Positions 20,974 to 54,926 of a stretch of 64,000 nt of DNA are shown here, piece by piece. Both the position numbers and the translations under genes were made by a program. How positions within the stretch are numbered: position 1 is the stretch's first letter; the number at the start of each line of letters is the position of its first letter. A model generated the notes under the pieces. That model did no database searches. It was not told the DNA's origin and saw only the letters and a list, made by a program, of their open reading frames with translations. This DNA is from Ferrovibrio sp. (lineage in GTDB: Bacteria > Pseudomonadota > Alphaproteobacteria > Ferrovibrionales > Ferrovibrionaceae), in contig JAGOQS010000002.1 of NCBI GenBank assembly GCA_017991315.1, forward strand, positions 620,001 to 684,000, given 5' to 3'.

Positions 20974-22077
20974 ATGCAAGGCGACGAACGCAGCGGCGAT
21001 AGCGCCGGCTATGGCGAAATCTACAATGTGCTGTTCGATCTGTGGCGCTTCGGCAGCAACGCCCTGGTCGGCTGGCGTCCCAGCCGTCTCGGCATCGAAG
21101 TCATCACCGTGCCCAAGGTGCGGCTGTTCTTTGCCGACACCGCCAATCCACGAATCTTCGCGGGCAGCCGCCAGATGGGCGGGCATACCTTCGACATGGT
21201 GGCGCAGGAACTGAATGTGCAGCCGATCGAGATCCGTCTTGATCAGGCCATCGGCACCGAGCCGGGCGAAGCGCATCCCGAGCGCGTCGATGAGCTTTTC
21301 GCGGCCTTCGCGGTAACGCTAACCCAGCACCGCGCCGTGCTGCTGATCGATATTGTCGGCTTCTCGCATCGCAGCCCGGCGGAACAGGCGGCCCAGCTCG
21401 CCACCCTGGAATTCGCCATCAATCTGGCTGAGGAAATAAGCCGCAAGCGCGGCCTCAAGGTGGAACTGGCCCGCACCACTACCGGCGACGGCTTCTATGT
21501 CTGGAACCGGCTCAAGGGCTTCACCGAGGATATCGATTTCTTCTGCTGCTTCGCGCTGTTCGTGATGATGTTCAAGACGCTGGAGCGCACTACGCGCGTG
21601 CCTGCGGCGATTCCGGAACTGCGGCTCTGCCTCGGCATCGGCAGCCATTTCCAGTATGGCCAGCCACGCGCCAATGGCGGCATGGCGGGTGAATTCATCG
21701 TCGGCAATGTCACCATAGAAATCGCCCGCCTGATCGGTGCGGCCAAGGCGGGGCAGATCCTGGTCGGCGATTTCCGCCGTCCAATCTCGGATGGCGGCAC
21801 GCTCTGCGGCACGGAAGTATTCCTCGCCGCCGTATCCGAGCGCATCAATGGCCTTGGCGAGTTGCGGCTGTTAAACATGCCAGTGGAACGCCTCGCCTTT
21901 TACCTGACCGGACAGCGTGCAGCCGACGGCAGCTATCCGCCACAGGCGATAACAGTGCTCGACAAGCATGGCTTCGAGCATCGCTGCTTCAACGCCAAGC
22001 TCAACGCACATCCGGTTGGTGCTGAACCGATCTTCGGCGGCCTGCAGCACACCGACATGATTCAAGCCCCAGACTGA
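20974..22077 (+). CDS. Class III nucleotidyl cyclase-like protein, copy A
   Basis: A 367-aa protein with an unrecognised N-terminal region (1-115), a class III cyclase homology domain (about 118-270), and a C-terminal region with DKHGFEHRCFNA (330-341). Cyclase-like motifs are LLIDIVGFS with the first metal Asp (D126), TTTGDGFYVW with the second (D172), and GNVTIEIARL, matching the canonical G-D-x-V-N-x-A-A-R segment and keeping Arg252. The transition-state Asn position appears to be Ile248, and the purine-selecting Lys before GD appears to be Ala. It is either a divergent cyclase or a catalytically dead sensor. It starts ATG at 20974 after GAGGT. A paralogue lies at 49392, and its stop is 3 bp from a convergent pentapeptide gene. 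Confidence 0.75.
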   Translation: MQGDERSGDSAGYGEIYNVLFDLWRFGSNALVGWRPSRLGIEVITVPKVRLFFADTANPRIFAGSRQMGGHTFDMVAQELNVQPIEIRLDQAIGTEPGEAHPERVDELFAAFAVTLTQHRAVLLIDIVGFSHRSPAEQAAQLATLEFAINLAEEISRKRGLKVELARTTTGDGFYVWNRLKGFTEDIDFFCCFALFVMMFKTLERTTRVPAAIPELRLCLGIGSHFQYGQPRANGGMAGEFIVGNVTIEIARLIGAAKAGQILVGDFRRPISDGGTLCGTEVFLAAVSERINGLGELRLLNMPVERLAFYLTGQRAADGSYPPQAITVLDKHGFEHRCFNAKLNAHPVGAEPIFGGLQHTDMIQAPD

Positions 22078-22080
22078 AGC

Positions 22081-23268
22081 CTAGGACTTCACGCAGGCAG
22101 ACAAGTCGAAGCCATCGAGTTCGGCCCGCACCAGATCGGCACCGGAGAAATTCGTTGCGAACTGCCGTCCGGTGAATTGCCCGGTGGGACTGTAGATCGG
22201 CACGCTGCCGCTTTGTGCACCCCGGAAATTCGACAGCCGCAACGTCGCGCCGGTGAAGTTGGTGCCACTAATATGCGCCTCGGTAAAATCGGCACCAATC
22301 AGCTTGGCATTTGAGAAGTTCGTCAGCTTCATCGAGGCTGCGGCAAAACGCGAGCCGCAAAGATCGGCACCGCTGAAATCCACCGCATCCAGCATCAGAC
22401 CGGAAAAGTTGAAGTAGCGCAGTTGCGCATCCTTCAGGATCAACCGGCGGCCCTGCTGGCCGCGCGTTTCCACCCAGTCGGTATGCAACAGCAATTCGCT
22501 TTTGAGGAACTCTGGAAAATCCTGCGGCTCGGTGAGCAGCGGCGGGCTGGCGGTGAGCTGCTCGATCGCCACGCCCTTGATCACCGCATTGGTGAATTCG
22601 GTGCCAAGACTGACCACGCCGCTGACCGTGGCATTGACGATCTGGGCGCCCGCCAGATTGGTGCCGATCAGCTTGGTGCCGATCAGTTTGGTATCGCCGA
22701 GATTGGCGCCGGAGAGATTGGCGTGCGACAGGTCGGCATTGCGCAGGTTGGTGCCGAAGAAATTCGCGCCCGAGAGATCGGCACCGATCATGCTGGCGCC
22801 GGAAAGATCGACGCCGGAAAACTCGGCACGCGATGCGTTGGCGAATTCCAGCAGGCAGTCGGTGAGGTCGGAGGTTTCAAGACCCGTGCGGCCGCCCTGC
22901 GCACCCATCATCACGCCACCGCGGAAATCGGCACCGCTGAGCTTGGCATGATTGAGGTTGGCGCCCTTGAGGTTGACACCGCGCAGGATCGCATTGGTCA
23001 GGTTGGCATGCTTGAGATCGGCTTGTTCAAGATTGGCGCCGAACAGATCGGCTTCCACCAGATCGGCCTTGGCCAGCCTGGCGCGCGTCAGATCCGAGCC
23101 GGAAAGTTTCGCCTTGGTGAGGACGCGGCCTTCGAAATTGGCGCCGATCAGACTCTTGCGGGTGAAGTCGATGACCTTGACCGTGGTCGGCGCGCGGGAG
23201 CGGAAGCGCTCCTCCATACGCACATCGAAGCCAGGGCCTTCAGGTGGGGTGCGGTCATCAAGCGGCAT
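22081..23268 (-). CDS. Pentapeptide-repeat protein, copy A
   Basis: A 395-aa protein made mostly of A(D/N)LxG-type pentapeptide repeats, expected to fold into a right-handed quadrilateral beta-helix. A first repeat block covers about residues 35-235. It is broken by about 50 residues holding the H-x2-W-V-x3-G-x2-G element (HTDWVETRGQQG), and a second block runs to the end. A similar element occurs in copy B and in other large pentapeptide proteins. The ATG at 23268 is used; the frame extends to a TTG at 23316. No signal peptide or membrane helix is seen. The function of this group is unknown; some pentapeptide proteins mimic DNA, but no gyrase-inhibitor signature is evident. Confidence 0.85.
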   Translation of the reverse strand: MPLDDRTPPEGPGFDVRMEERFRSRAPTTVKVIDFTRKSLIGANFEGRVLTKAKLSGSDLTRARLAKADLVEADLFGANLEQADLKHANLTNAILRGVNLKGANLNHAKLSGADFRGGVMMGAQGGRTGLETSDLTDCLLEFANASRAEFSGVDLSGASMIGADLSGANFFGTNLRNADLSHANLSGANLGDTKLIGTKLIGTNLAGAQIVNATVSGVVSLGTEFTNAVIKGVAIEQLTASPPLLTEPQDFPEFLKSELLLHTDWVETRGQQGRRLILKDAQLRYFNFSGLMLDAVDFSGADLCGSRFAAASMKLTNFSNAKLIGADFTEAHISGTNFTGATLRLSNFRGAQSGSVPIYSPTGQFTGRQFATNFSGADLVRAELDGFDLSACVKS

Positions 23269-23407
23269 GCATGGGCGTCCTGCGCCGGCAACGCGGCATT
23301 GCTGTGTAACGCGCAATATTAGCTTTGTTGAGAGACAATTCTACTGGTGACTATATCGAATTTATGTGGAATGGCTGCGGCGATTGATTACGCAGAATCC
23401 GTCAGAT

Positions 23408-49391: not shown

Positions 49392-50528
49392 ATGAGCGAC
49401 ATGGACGCCGTCCGACAGGGAATGCGGGAGATCGACTTTGTCCTGTATTCCTCCTGGCGCCTGGGCAAGCACATCCTTGCCGGCTGGAGCCATGAAAACA
49501 ATCAGATCTCCTTCGCCTTCTCCGCGCCCTACAATGTGCTGGGCAATGCGGAAGCCTATCCGCGTCTGATCCGTGGCCGCCGCCTGATGGGCGGCAAGAC
49601 TTTCGCCGAAACCTGCAAAGTGCTGGGCATCCGACCGCTGACCATGGACGTGCCGTTCAGCGTCGGTCAGGGCCGCAACGACGTGAACCCGGCGATGATC
49701 GAGAATTTGGTCAAGCGCTATGCCGTGGTTGAAACCGCCAACCGCGCCGTGATGCTGTTCGATATCGTCGGCTTCTCCAAGCATTCGCCGCTGGAGCAGG
49801 TGGCGCAGCTTTCGTCGCTGGAATACTCGATCAACTCCGCCAGCAAACGCCTCAACGAAGTCGGCCTGCGCAACGAACTGGCACGCTCCACCGTGGGCGA
49901 TGGTTTCTATGTCTGGAACCGCGCCAAGGGCGTTGAAGCGGATATGCGCACCTATATCGCGCTGATTCTGATCCTTGCCGATAACGCGCTGGCGCGGCGC
50001 AAGGGCAATCCGCGCCTGGTGCCGATCCTGCGTGCCGCCTTCACAGTCGGCCCGCATTTCTCCTACCACCAGGTAGAAGGCAACAATCCGCGCGGCTTCG
50101 AGTATATCGTTGGCGATGTGACCATCGGTCTGGCCCGCATCATCGGCAAGGCCCAGGCGCAGCAGGTGCTGATCGGGCAGTTCAACCGCTCGTCGGACCA
50201 GTTGGTGAACCAGAGCGAGATCGACACCATCCTGTTTCTTGCCCGCGCCGAAAAGCTGGTGCAGCCGCTGATCGGCCAGGAGCTGGGCGGTTACCGTATC
50301 ACCAATATCCGCGCCAGCGTCACGTCAGCAGTGGAAGTGCGCAACGGCGTCACGGTCTACCGTATCATGGACAAGCACGGCTTTTCGCACCAGGCCTTCA
50401 ATGCTCGTATCACCATCGACCGCGATGGCGCGGAATCGATCAGCCTTGGTCTGGGCACCACCGAACTCGGCGAGTTCGGCGCCGAGCCGACGCTTTACGA
50501 TGTGCGCCAGCTCTCGGGCCAGAAATAG
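49392..50528 (+). CDS. Class III nucleotidyl cyclase-like protein, copy B
   Basis: A 378-aa paralogue of the protein at 20974, with the same three-part layout. Shared blocks are GRRLMGGKTF (62-71), MLFDIVGFSKHSPLEQVAQL with metal Asp124, ELARSTVGDGFYVWNR with Asp170, EYIVGDVTIGLARIIG with Arg249, and DKHGFSHQAFNA (327-338). As in copy A, the Asn that would stabilise the transition state is Ile (245), so catalysis is uncertain. There are no membrane segments. Its stop touches the stop of the convergent pentapeptide gene with no base between. It might be read through from pgi, 65 bp upstream. Confidence 0.78.
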   Translation: MSDMDAVRQGMREIDFVLYSSWRLGKHILAGWSHENNQISFAFSAPYNVLGNAEAYPRLIRGRRLMGGKTFAETCKVLGIRPLTMDVPFSVGQGRNDVNPAMIENLVKRYAVVETANRAVMLFDIVGFSKHSPLEQVAQLSSLEYSINSASKRLNEVGLRNELARSTVGDGFYVWNRAKGVEADMRTYIALILILADNALARRKGNPRLVPILRAAFTVGPHFSYHQVEGNNPRGFEYIVGDVTIGLARIIGKAQAQQVLIGQFNRSSDQLVNQSEIDTILFLARAEKLVQPLIGQELGGYRITNIRASVTSAVEVRNGVTVYRIMDKHGFSHQAFNARITIDRDGAESISLGLGTTELGEFGAEPTLYDVRQLSGQK

Positions 50529-51776
50529 CTAGCGCACAAAGCCAATGGCATCGGTCAGGTCTGCTTCGGCAAGATCCGCCGTAGCGAGATCAGCTTCCGT
50601 CAGGTCGGCACCGCGCAGGTTGGCGCGGCTGAGCTTGGCGCCGCGCAGATCGCAGCGGCGCAGGTTGGCACCTTCCAGATTGGCGGGGAAATAGCGGTCG
50701 GCACCAACCACCAGCGCGCTGAGATTGGCATCGCGCAGATCGGCATGGGCCAACTTGGCGCCCTTCAGGCTGCTGCCACGCAGATCGGCGCCGGCCAGCT
50801 TGCTGTTCCGCAGATCGGCTTCCGCCAGCTTGGCACCCTGCAGCAGCGCGCCTTCCATGTTGAGGCCAAACAGCACGGCCTTGTTCGCCACCAGGCCGAC
50901 CAGCAGGGCCTTGTAGAGGCTGCCAAGCTTGCGCAGGTCATAGCCGCTGAAATCGGTCAGCTTGCCTTCCTTGCCGCCGCTCGTGACCCACAGACTATGC
51001 AGTCGCAGCGCCTCTTCCGGCGTCAGGCCGAGGTCTTCCAGCGGCTTGCCTGCCGGCTTGTCGGAAAGCAGGCCATCGGTGTTGGCGCCGGTGAGATCAG
51101 CCATCTGCATCTTGGCGCCGGTGATCACGGCATTGGTCAGTGCCGCGCCTTTCAGGCTGGCACCGGAAAGATCGGCGCCGGCCAGATTGGCGCCGGTGAG
51201 ATTGGCATTGGCCAGATTGGCGCGCACCAGGTTGGCGCCGATCATGATGGCATCGGTGAAATCGGTATGGGTCGCCACCGAACCGGTCATCTTCGCCGAG
51301 GTAAGGTTGGCACCGCGCATCTTGGCGCCATTCATTTCCGCCGGGCCGACATCGAAGCCGAGCGCATGAATGTTACCGTGGCGGTCACGTTCGGCGATCA
51401 TGCCATCGCGCAGGTCTGCGTCGAACAGATTGGCCCGGGTGAGATTGGCGCCATGCAGACAGGCGCCGCGCAGATCGGCCCGCACCAGGCTGGCGCCGGT
51501 TAAATCCGCCTCGCGCAGATCGGCGCCGAACAGCACCGCGCGGTCAAGATTGCAGTCCTGCAGTTTGGTGCCATACAGCACGCAACCGGTGAAATCGGCA
51601 TCGCTGAGATTGGCGCCAGACAGGATCAGATTGGAAAGATCGTGGAACGACAATATGGCGCGGCGACCGCCCATGATGCCGTTGCGGTAATTCTCATGCG
51701 CCTTGATTGCCTGCGCGATCTCGCTGTGGCTCAATTTCTTGCGGCTGCCACGCGATCCACCTGTGCCTTCGCTCAT
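50529..51776 (-). CDS. Pentapeptide-repeat protein, copy B
   Basis: A 415-aa protein with A(D/N)LxxA-type repeats over about residues 45-245 and 300-410, divided by a helical insert. The insert carries LHSLWVTSGGKEGKLTDF, similar to the HTDWVETRGQQG element of copy A. A related HENYRNGIMGGRRA element comes before the first repeats. The basic N-terminus (SRGSRKKLSHSEIAQAIKAHENY) shows no signal peptide. It starts with ATG at 51776, 37 bp after a 473-aa unknown gene, so it is likely the last gene of a three-gene operon. Confidence 0.85.
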   Translation of the reverse strand: MSEGTGGSRGSRKKLSHSEIAQAIKAHENYRNGIMGGRRAILSFHDLSNLILSGANLSDADFTGCVLYGTKLQDCNLDRAVLFGADLREADLTGASLVRADLRGACLHGANLTRANLFDADLRDGMIAERDRHGNIHALGFDVGPAEMNGAKMRGANLTSAKMTGSVATHTDFTDAIMIGANLVRANLANANLTGANLAGADLSGASLKGAALTNAVITGAKMQMADLTGANTDGLLSDKPAGKPLEDLGLTPEEALRLHSLWVTSGGKEGKLTDFSGYDLRKLGSLYKALLVGLVANKAVLFGLNMEGALLQGAKLAEADLRNSKLAGADLRGSSLKGAKLAHADLRDANLSALVVGADRYFPANLEGANLRRCDLRGAKLSRANLRGADLTEADLATADLAEADLTDAIGFVR

Positions 51777-51813
51777 CGGCCCATCCCCCCAATGAGGCCG
51801 CCCTCGGTGCTGC

Positions 51814-53235
51814 TTATGCCTGCGGCATCCGTGCGATAGCGGCCATCCCGTCTTTCATCAGCTTGTTGGCATACTGGCTGCCGGCGACCAGTTCCAGCAT
51901 GCGCACCGCCGCAAACAGCTTGGTGCGCGCCGCTTCCGGGCCTTCCGCATTCAGCTTGCCCGCCTTGATATCGGCCAGCAGCGTGTTGCCGGTGCCATCG
52001 ATCTGGCTGGTAAGCTGCTTGATCGCGCCGTTGACATCCTTGTCGGCGCCGATCTCGGTCGCCACCCTGGCAACACGCTGCAGCGCATAGACGCGATTCT
52101 CGGCCTCGAGCTTGGCGTCGAACACCGCCTTCTTGGCATCCTCGCTGTTTTCTGCCGGCGGCAGCGACAGCACTGCATCAATGCCGCCCAGCACCTTCTC
52201 GTCGATGCCGCCGAGCACGCCGATGCGCACCATATCCTTGAGCTGACGGCTGGCCGCATCCATCTCGGGCTGCGGCCCCTCGGCCATGCCGTCCTTCTTC
52301 AGCCGGCCGATCAGCGACACGAAATCGCCCACCATGTCAGCCACCTTGGCATCGTCTACCTTTGAAGGATCGGTACGGGTGACGGCACCGAAAAAGCGCT
52401 TGGAATCGCCCGACAGCATGGCGCGGACATACTGGCCGGGCTTCATGCCTTCGATGCCGGTGGGCAATTCAGCCAGGGAGTCGAAAATCGGCAGCGCCTG
52501 GAAGCCATCGGTGAGGCGCGCCACGGTGATGGCAATCAGGCAGCCGGGCATGCCTTTGCCCGTGGTCGCCACATCGCTGTAGATCTGCTTGATCTCCTCC
52601 ACCTGCTCATCCAGCAGGCGGCCGACCGGCTTCGGCGACATCGCCTCACGCAGCTTTTCGGTTTCCGGCGCCAGTTCCAGCAGGCAGGTCATGTCGGTGA
52701 GGTCACCCAGCACGTTCTCACCCCCCAGCTTCTCCACCAGGGCGGCATGCTGGCCGGGATCGGCGGCAGCCTTGTTCAATTCCTCGCGCAGGCGCTGCGC
52801 CGCGACTTTCCAAAGCGTAGCACCCAGGCGCGGAATACGCGGATCGCTGCTGGACCCGATATCGGGGGCCGGCGCGGCGCGCAGCGAGGCTTCAAGCTGC
52901 TTCACGGCGGCGGCATCCAGGCTGGACAGCACGAATTCCCAGCAGGGCGCCAGCGACGAGCGAGCGATGCGGCCGAACGGCTTCACGCCGTCATCGCCCA
53001 TCACCAGCAGATCCTCAAACGGATGGCAGAACACGCGCTGCAGCGTGAGGTAACGCGGCGGCCGGGTTTTCACCAGACGCGGGCGCAGGGTGCCAAGCGC
53101 GGCATTGGCAACAGCGGCAGAGAGGACGATAGCGCGCGATCGCTCGATGAGCAGTGTGAGCTGCGCCACCTTCTCGTCGGGTATCTCGAACAGCTTGCGT
53201 TCGATATCCCGCAGTTCGGAAGCAAGATCGGTCAT
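51814..53235 (-). CDS. Hypothetical helical protein of module B (473 aa)
   Basis: I do not recognise this family. The protein is almost all helical, rich in Ala, Leu, Glu and Lys, with no membrane segment or signal peptide. A segment RVFCHPFEDLLVMGDDGVKPFGRIARSSLAPCWEF (about 68-102) looks conserved and domain-like, and the second half (about 250-470) seems to consist of repeated amphipathic helices. Start ATG 53235 overlaps the stop of the upstream 369-aa gene (ATGA), so the two proteins are translationally coupled and may form a complex. It is followed by the pentapeptide gene. Confidence 0.75.
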   Translation of the reverse strand: MTDLASELRDIERKLFEIPDEKVAQLTLLIERSRAIVLSAAVANAALGTLRPRLVKTRPPRYLTLQRVFCHPFEDLLVMGDDGVKPFGRIARSSLAPCWEFVLSSLDAAAVKQLEASLRAAPAPDIGSSSDPRIPRLGATLWKVAAQRLREELNKAAADPGQHAALVEKLGGENVLGDLTDMTCLLELAPETEKLREAMSPKPVGRLLDEQVEEIKQIYSDVATTGKGMPGCLIAITVARLTDGFQALPIFDSLAELPTGIEGMKPGQYVRAMLSGDSKRFFGAVTRTDPSKVDDAKVADMVGDFVSLIGRLKKDGMAEGPQPEMDAASRQLKDMVRIGVLGGIDEKVLGGIDAVLSLPPAENSEDAKKAVFDAKLEAENRVYALQRVARVATEIGADKDVNGAIKQLTSQIDGTGNTLLADIKAGKLNAEGPEAARTKLFAAVRMLELVAGSQYANKLMKDGMAAIARMPQA

Positions 53236-54341
53236 ACCTGCCTCCTTTTCGTGGATTCGACCCGTCGCAGCATTTCCATATCCAACGTGCCTGAATTCCA
53301 ACTCTCAAGCGCCCGCACCTGGAGCTTGGTGTTTTCCTGCATCGCCTGGGCATTCGGGCGGTTGGCCGCTTCCTTTTCCGGGATGATGGGCAGAATTCGA
53401 TAAATTTCCGTTATCGCCGCCCGCTGGGTATCCCGGTCCTTATCCTGCACATCCTGCCACAGCAGGATAACGTATTCCCAGCCATCAACCGTCCACCACA
53501 GCCGTTCCAGGTCCTTTTGGATCGAGCCGGAAATCTTCTCCCAGTTCATCAGCACCCGCTCGGGATGTTCCAGAGGGCGCATCGCGGAAGCAATGAGTTC
53601 CTTGGCATAATCGCCGGTAAACCCGCAAATCTTGCCAATCGGGCGAGCCAGTTCCGCGGCTTCCGACTTGTCCTCGGCAGACCATTTGGCCATGGCTTCC
53701 TCGAGCCCGGCGATGGCATTGACGATGCGGCGCAGGCGGCAATCCTTGCTCATGCCGGGCACGCCAAGCGGCGAGATCAGGTTGCCCCAGGATTCCAGCC
53801 GGTCGTAAAGCAGATTCGTCGTAGCCTGTAACCGCTGGGCGATGTCGCCCATGGCATGCTTCACCCGGTCTCGCCCGGAGTCGGACACGAAGTCGGAGAC
53901 GCGCAGATTCATCTGGCCGCCCGACATCTTCTCCAGCGCCCCCTTGAACAGGAAGAAGCGCGTCAGCAGCATCTCGTTTTCATCTTCCGCCAATGCTTCC
54001 TCGGCGGACTTCTGCGCTTCCGGGCCGGCGAGGCCTGATTTCGCCGCCTCCAGCGTGGCACTGCGCACATGTGGCGGCAGACAGGAATTGCGCTTCAGGA
54101 TCTCTTCATGCAGCGAACGATCATGCATCGTCAGCGAGAAGATTTCCGGCACATCCTTCCAGCGGATGACGTAATTGCCCTTCACACCGGAGAAGGCGGA
54201 GACCGTGAGTTCAAGCTGCTCGCGGCTATCCACGCGCACACGCGCCTGGCTGATGGCCGGCGTGGTGAAACTGACAGCGGTGCCACGCTCCTCGAATTTC
54301 GTCGGCTGAAACTGCGAGCCGGCGCCTTTTGGAAAATTCAT
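53232..54341 (-). CDS. Hypothetical protein of module B (369 aa)
   Basis: I do not recognise this family. The N-terminal 80 residues look beta-rich (ISQARVRVDSREQLELTVSAFSGVKGNYVIRWKDVPEIFSL); the rest is helical with many charged residues and a Trp-rich stretch near residue 285 (LERLWWTVDGWEYVILLW). It has no signal peptide or transmembrane helix. The ATG at 54341 follows AGGGG. It is the first gene of the apparent operon 369-aa, 473-aa, pentapeptide, with tight coupling to the second. Confidence 0.75.
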   Translation of the reverse strand: MNFPKGAGSQFQPTKFEERGTAVSFTTPAISQARVRVDSREQLELTVSAFSGVKGNYVIRWKDVPEIFSLTMHDRSLHEEILKRNSCLPPHVRSATLEAAKSGLAGPEAQKSAEEALAEDENEMLLTRFFLFKGALEKMSGGQMNLRVSDFVSDSGRDRVKHAMGDIAQRLQATTNLLYDRLESWGNLISPLGVPGMSKDCRLRRIVNAIAGLEEAMAKWSAEDKSEAAELARPIGKICGFTGDYAKELIASAMRPLEHPERVLMNWEKISGSIQKDLERLWWTVDGWEYVILLWQDVQDKDRDTQRAAITEIYRILPIIPEKEAANRPNAQAMQENTKLQVRALESWNSGTLDMEMLRRVESTKRRQV

Positions 54342-54447: not shown

Positions 54448-54879
54448 TCATTGCGACAAAAAGCGACGAGACTGCTCCACCACCCGCAGCGTCTCCTCCC
54501 AGAGATCAAGTTCTTCTAGTTCTTTCGGCGTAAACCAGGCGGCCTCGGCCGCATCATCGCCCGCCACTGTGTCGCCAGAGCGCCAGCGCGCGGCATAGTC
54601 GATGATGGTGTAATGATACAGCACACGGCCTTCCGTATCGCGCTGGACCGAGTCGATCACTGCAACCAGTCCGAGTAAATCAATTTCGACACCGGTCTCC
54701 TCCAGCAATTCCCGCCGGATACCCTGTTCCACCGTCTCGCCCAATAATTGCCCCCCGCCCGGCAGACTCCACAGCCCCTGACGCGGCGGCTGGCCCCGGC
54801 GGATCATCAATACCTTGCCCTCATGCCAGACCACGGCGCCAAGGCCGACTATCGGAGCGGAGGGGTATTCACGCGGCAT
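54448..54879 (-). CDS. NUDIX hydrolase
   Basis: A 143-aa Nudix pyrophosphohydrolase. The Nudix box is intact: GGQLLGETVEQGIRRELLEETGVE matches G-x5-E-x7-R-E-x2-E-E-x-G. The fold begins VGLGAVVWHEGKVLMIRRG, typical of the ADP-ribose/NUDIX group with broad nucleotide substrates. ATG 54879 lies 8 bp after GGAG. It is divergent from the P450 gene and 106 bp downstream (in genome order) of the module B operon start. Confidence 0.9.
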   Translation of the reverse strand: MPREYPSAPIVGLGAVVWHEGKVLMIRRGQPPRQGLWSLPGGGQLLGETVEQGIRRELLEETGVEIDLLGLVAVIDSVQRDTEGRVLYHYTIIDYAARWRSGDTVAGDDAAEAAWFTPKELEELDLWEETLRVVEQSRRFLSQ

Positions 54880-54926
54880 CGATCCATCTCCATACTCGGG
54901 CAAAATAACAGACGCCGGGAAGCGCC

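Follow-up and report, generated by a model that had tools for sequence, protein, structure and literature searches.

The described systems closest to the locus reported here are Pycsar, in which a class III-like cyclase gene adjoins a partner gene, the class III cyclase domains themselves (PF00211), the pentapeptide-repeat proteins of the Qnr, MfpA and HetL type and a gene pair of Azospirillum sp. B510. The locus lies in a stretch of 64,000 nucleotides from Ferrovibrio sp. (contig JAGOQS010000002.1, positions 620,001-684,000), called the window below, and all coordinates are window positions. It comprises a cyclase-like gene, a pentapeptide-repeat gene and two genes for proteins of 369 and 473 amino acids (aa), whose families we named A369 and B473 in this analysis (Table 1). 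The original prediction had taken the four genes as one functional unit. Comparison of about 80 A369/B473 loci and 21 cyclase-like loci showed two independent modules instead. On balance we consider it probable that two separate two-gene modules stand side by side in Ferrovibrio, where A369 and B473 would form a soluble complex acting as adaptor or regulator and the cyclase-like protein would be the partner of the pentapeptide protein.

A369 and B473 constitute an old two-gene operon of the Rhodospirillales with overlapping start and stop codons. Among 61 loci from named genomes, B473 follows A369 directly 3' on the same strand in 53, as it does in the window, and a -4 overlap is the commonest junction (22 loci); a second, independent genome set gave the same picture. 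The operon proposed for these two genes is thus borne out. Single-sequence searches of 385 alphaproteobacterial genomes detected A369 in 36, B473 in 56 and both in 31. In one further genome (G004; G and L numbers denote genomes and loci) B473 adjoins A369 and was detected by profile, having been missed by the single-sequence search, and the remaining four of the 36 genomes hold a solitary type of A369. A search of 398 genomes across the wider phylum found A369 confined to Alphaproteobacteria, bar one marginal partial match. The hosts of the pair are many soil and water bacteria related to Azospirillum and include Azospirillum itself, Niveispirillum, Skermanella, Thalassospira, Thalassobaculum, Aerophototrophica and Aestuariispira, with two to five copies in many genomes. 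Its flanks are constant across Azospirillum species (AsmA/SLC13 genes), and since the flanking genes do not vary within a genus, inheritance looks vertical.

Several observations suggest that the two proteins act together. In one genome (G384) a single open frame of 865 aa holds both A369 and B473, connected by a linker rich in Ala, Pro and Lys, and inspection of the other frames at the junction revealed no trace of a frameshift. The distance matrices of the two families correlate at 0.80, while the best of 2000 permutations reached 0.20. Nine genomes carry two diverged pairs, with identities of 37-52% between the A369 and 32-35% between the B473 copies; the orthology assignments of these copies agree in 56 of 56 informative comparisons, and therefore partners have not been swapped. 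Of 12 solitary A369 relatives, ten group in a single clade separate from the paired sequences (support 1.0), and the other two are the tandem copies at L104. The six stand-alone B473s that were tested likewise group together, apart from the paired sequences (support 0.997). From these sequence relationships we infer that A369 and B473 bind each other in one soluble cytosolic complex.

Some of the unpaired relatives have recurrent neighbours. At six loci, solitary A369 relatives (about 390-420 aa) lie beside housekeeping genes, namely recO (L264, L265), rppH (L261, L270) and groES (L267, L268). The B473 relatives L105-L110, from genomes lacking A369, belong to one clade, most of them in a conserved gene order with histidine kinase/response regulator genes close by.

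The view that neither protein has a nameable family was upheld by profile searches, which gave no convincing match. No match beyond scattered, single-member ones at chance level was obtained in Pfam, NCBIfam, PHROGs or PADLOC, where for A369 in NCBIfam and PHROGs the search covered the window protein. B473 gave one chance-level PHROG match and one chance-level PADLOC match, to BrxC, in one of 37 members. Profile searches against solved structures (PDB) returned coiled-coil and EF-Tu chance matches only, or nothing. Hydropathy indicates that both proteins are soluble, with no transmembrane stretch. The N-terminal 70 or so residues of A369 are beta-rich and the remainder is mostly helical, including a conserved W-x2-DGW motif; its invariant positions are Y57, D74, P89, G103, G106, G287, W288 and W295. 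B473, in turn, has an invariant Arg/Pro cluster (R51, R61, R67, P72, R92). A PilZ domain at the A369 N-terminus was considered and rejected, as hhalign against PilZ of the same bacterial family gave a score of 11 with P of about 0.5.

The pair might also be a two-subunit enzyme, with A369, B473 or both adopting an unrecognised or very divergent known fold. The strong conservation of D74, H73, W283, D286-G287-W288 and W295 in A369 would suit such a role, but the invariant residues of the pair (Gly, Pro, Trp, Arg and Asp) appear structural, no catalytic set, conserved Cys/Ser/Lys set or nucleotide-binding motif was recognised in the alignments, and solved enzymes gave no profile match. We therefore regard an enzyme as unlikely and, as no catalytic set was seen, read the pair as an adaptor or regulator. 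Quite unlikely, too, is a regulator associated with nucleic acids or ribosomes and bound through the Arg cluster of B473. R51, R61, R67 and R92 are invariant, some solitary A369 relatives lie beside recO or rppH and the Ferrovibrio pair lies beside a NUDIX gene; however, the arginines could just as well maintain a protein interface, B473 as a whole is acidic (isoelectric point 5.5), and gene context speaks weakly for this possibility since the neighbours differ among lineages.

In the soluble complex that we favour, A369 and B473 would form one largely helical cytosolic assembly. That it is a non-enzymatic adaptor or regulator is less certain than the binding itself. B473, the more widespread of the two, would be the core and may bind an anionic or protein partner through its Arg/Pro-rich invariant N-terminal region, while A369, with its beta-rich N-terminus followed by helices, could be a specificity or regulatory subunit; several pairs in a genome would then correspond to several parallel complexes. 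Several points weigh against this picture. Congruent trees also result from co-inheritance of an operon alone, so that neither the matrix correlation nor the 56 agreeing comparisons are proof of contact. The fusion comes from one genome only, and some two dozen genomes have B473 but no A369, so that B473 can act in the absence of this partner. The helix contents, 64% for A369 and 70% for B473, come from a crude propensity calculation, the conserved neighbours give no consistent functional hint beyond single genera, and an enzymatic fold without obvious motif is possible. As far as searched, both families appear undescribed at the sequence level. Nevertheless, the likeliest outcome is a fold or a type of adaptor complex that is already known, and for this reason we refrain from calling the system categorically new. 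It is improbable that the Rhodospirillales have in this pair a novel type of cytosolic regulatory complex with two subunits, an insulated pair family whose parallel copies do not exchange partners and whose folds have not been seen before.

The cyclase-like and pentapeptide genes pair on their own. Of 21 cyclase-like loci, spread over many families, 13 have a pentapeptide gene as direct neighbour, whereas away from the adjacent positions such a gene accounts for one of 275; the paired genes converge in some loci and run in the same direction in others. The cyclase-like gene retains its pentapeptide partner in families where A369-B473 is absent or elsewhere. In the loci examined outside Ferrovibrio, A369-B473 never adjoins a cyclase-like gene, and it adjoins a pentapeptide gene in a single locus (L227). 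The two modules can also be separated within the genus. In three Ferrovibrio species (L151, L152, L156) the pentapeptide gene is cleanly missing from the site, where B473 and the cyclase-like gene are 7-17 base pairs (bp) apart, and in a fourth species (G010) the cyclase-like orthologue lies about 25 kilobases away. The window itself holds a second cyclase-like/pentapeptide pair, module A (20974-23316), which stands alone with no copy of A369 or B473. Since the modules are separable both outside and inside Ferrovibrio, the four-gene arrangement is a genus-level juxtaposition.

This bears on the idea of one signalling unit, in which a nucleotide produced or sensed by the cyclase-like protein would control both the pentapeptide protein and A369-B473. 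The genes are tightly packed in the window, several Ferrovibrio species share their order, and in the distant L227 a pentapeptide gene precedes the pair by 34 bp. Against this stand the absence of the cyclase-like gene beside the pair outside Ferrovibrio, the clean lack of the pentapeptide gene between B473 and the cyclase-like gene in three Ferrovibrio species, the distant orthologue of G010, module A, and the position of the cyclase-like gene on the opposite strand. One unit of all four genes is accordingly improbable, although the unnamed families and the operon of the two unknown genes, which had been part of the same interpretation, hold; that in other genomes the pair largely lacks pentapeptide and cyclase-like neighbours runs counter to the remainder.

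The cyclase-like protein carries a divergent domain homologous to class III cyclases at about residues 119-271. None of 20 family members matches PF00211, and the window protein has no Pfam match. However, the family profile aligned with 25 genuine cyclase domains at P = 2.4e-5 in hhalign, where control profiles (the reversed profile and those of A369 and B473) gave P of 0.1-0.8. The metal-binding D124 and D170 are kept, at a spacing of 46 residues compared with 44 between the corresponding Asp residues in PycC structures (PMC11224242), as is R249 of the Asn-x3-Arg motif. The position of the transition-state Asn is taken by I245, which is nearly invariant across the family. As the catalytic Asn is replaced, canonical cyclase activity is doubtful. 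Most likely the protein binds a nucleotide or a metal as the partner of its pentapeptide protein and is not a normal producer of cyclic AMP or cyclic GMP.

A defence role had also been imagined for the locus and found no support, PADLOC giving no relevant match and the flanks being the same within genera. One of 20 cyclase-like members matches the PADLOC PycC model (E = 6e-4), but the same model picks up class III cyclases in 159 of 240 genomes, so that a weak match says only that a protein is class III-like and is uninformative. An anti-phage, Pycsar-like system with the pentapeptide or A369/B473 proteins as effectors is very improbable, considering that the cyclase-like protein of the window lacks even a PycC match and its family has lost the catalytic Asn, that A369 and the pentapeptide proteins lack PADLOC matches and B473 has only the chance-level one to BrxC, that the pentapeptide protein has no cyclic-nucleotide-binding domain and the neighbours show pentapeptide repeats or no domain, that the locus is fixed in Ferrovibrio and the flanks of the Azospirillum pair are constant, unlike a mobile defence island, and that no phage record matches A369.

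The gene layout of the locus had been described exactly to the base. The A369 stop and the B473 start overlap as ATGA (53232-53235), B473 and the pentapeptide gene are separated by 37 bp, and the stop of the cyclase-like gene (TAG, 50526-50528) abuts that of the convergent pentapeptide gene (complement of CTA, 50529-50531). A perfect AGGAGG precedes the overlap and the B473 start by five bases, and together with the ATGA it would be the layout expected for coupled translation. An independent gene caller based on codon usage picked the same frames. Ratios of nonsynonymous to synonymous substitution rates are 0.14-0.40 for all four genes, compared with those of other Ferrovibrio species (L151, L153, L155, L156), and purifying selection acts on all of them. 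The nearest named relatives of the window are Ferrovibrio, and B473 is present in all ten Ferrovibrio genomes searched (the window's own, another from its species and eight more from the genus). The NUDIX gene is a fixed upstream neighbour of A369 within Ferrovibrio only. A scan of the locus for terminators and promoters yielded nothing exceeding chance, and an EcfG-type general-stress promoter motif upstream of A369 was rejected, as it occurred in two of 96 loci only.

Table 1. Features of the four-gene locus and of module A (window positions).
Feature	Position	Strand	Remarks
Cyclase-like gene	49392-50528	+	378 aa
Pentapeptide-repeat gene (PF00805)	50529-51776	-	415 aa; 37 bp downstream of B473
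B473, second gene of the pair	51814-53235	-	473 aa; mostly helical; from alignments and composition
A369, first gene of the pair	53232-54341	-	369 aa; from alignments, operon with B473 and composition
AGGAGG ribosome-binding site of B473	53241-53246	-	within the 3' end of A369; read from sequence
NUDIX hydrolase gene	54448-54903	-	upstream of A369, same strand
Module A cyclase-like gene	20974-22077	+	same family
Module A pentapeptide gene	22081-23316	-	convergent with module A cyclase-like gene, 3 bp apart

Additional small genes accompany the pair in some lineages. About 17 Azospirillum loci (L159:8457-8828 and equivalents) contain a gene for a hypothetical protein of 124 aa some 20-50 bp after B473; it accompanies one paralogous pair type, has no Pfam domain and could be a third operon member in those loci. 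In Skermanella (L218, L219) a second A369 lies head to head with the A369-B473 pair, followed by an unknown gene of 135 aa. L173 and L204 have three small same-strand genes (about 120, 185 and 172 aa) closely 3' of the pair, the third with a weak ZapB-like coiled-coil match under the cut-off. None of the small downstream genes gave a convincing Pfam domain. In one Ferrovibrio genome (G007; L010, L013) B473 is split over two frames, by a frameshift in either the genome or the assembly.

Overall, the tempting picture of a four-gene, Pycsar-like unit gives way to two well-defined pairs that can be tested. A369-B473 is a widely conserved operon in Azospirillum and relatives without entry in any library searched, and given the natural fusion and the strict partner fidelity, interaction is the first thing to test. 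The association of a cyclase-like protein of degenerate catalytic motif with a pentapeptide protein spans many more families than the window alone could reveal, and no description of it was found in the literature searched; searches on cyclase/pentapeptide pairs and on Ferrovibrio brought up nothing on point.

Compared with the known systems, the locus shares individual elements with each of them. The Azospirillum sp. B510 pair on pAB510c (WP_012977162.1 for A369, WP_012977161.1 for B473) has the same families and gene order as the window pair and differs in being annotated as hypothetical only, as are other members in public records; no mention of either accession was found in the literature searched. 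The two pentapeptide proteins of the window (415 and 411 aa) consist of tandem A(D/N)LXX repeats and are clear PF00805 members (E of 3.7e-70 and 4e-60), but they fall short of the score thresholds for the named families Qnr, MfpA and HetL and differ from these in being typically paired with a cyclase-like gene. The cyclase-like protein aligns with the class III domain over about 144 positions, metal-binding Asp residues and conserved Arg included, whereas Ile stands for the Asn and, by alignment, Ser for the base-selecting Lys. With Pycsar the locus has in common that a class III-like cyclase gene neighbours the gene of a partner, but here the partner is a pentapeptide protein without cyclic-nucleotide-binding domain, and in the window the two genes are convergent, not operonic.

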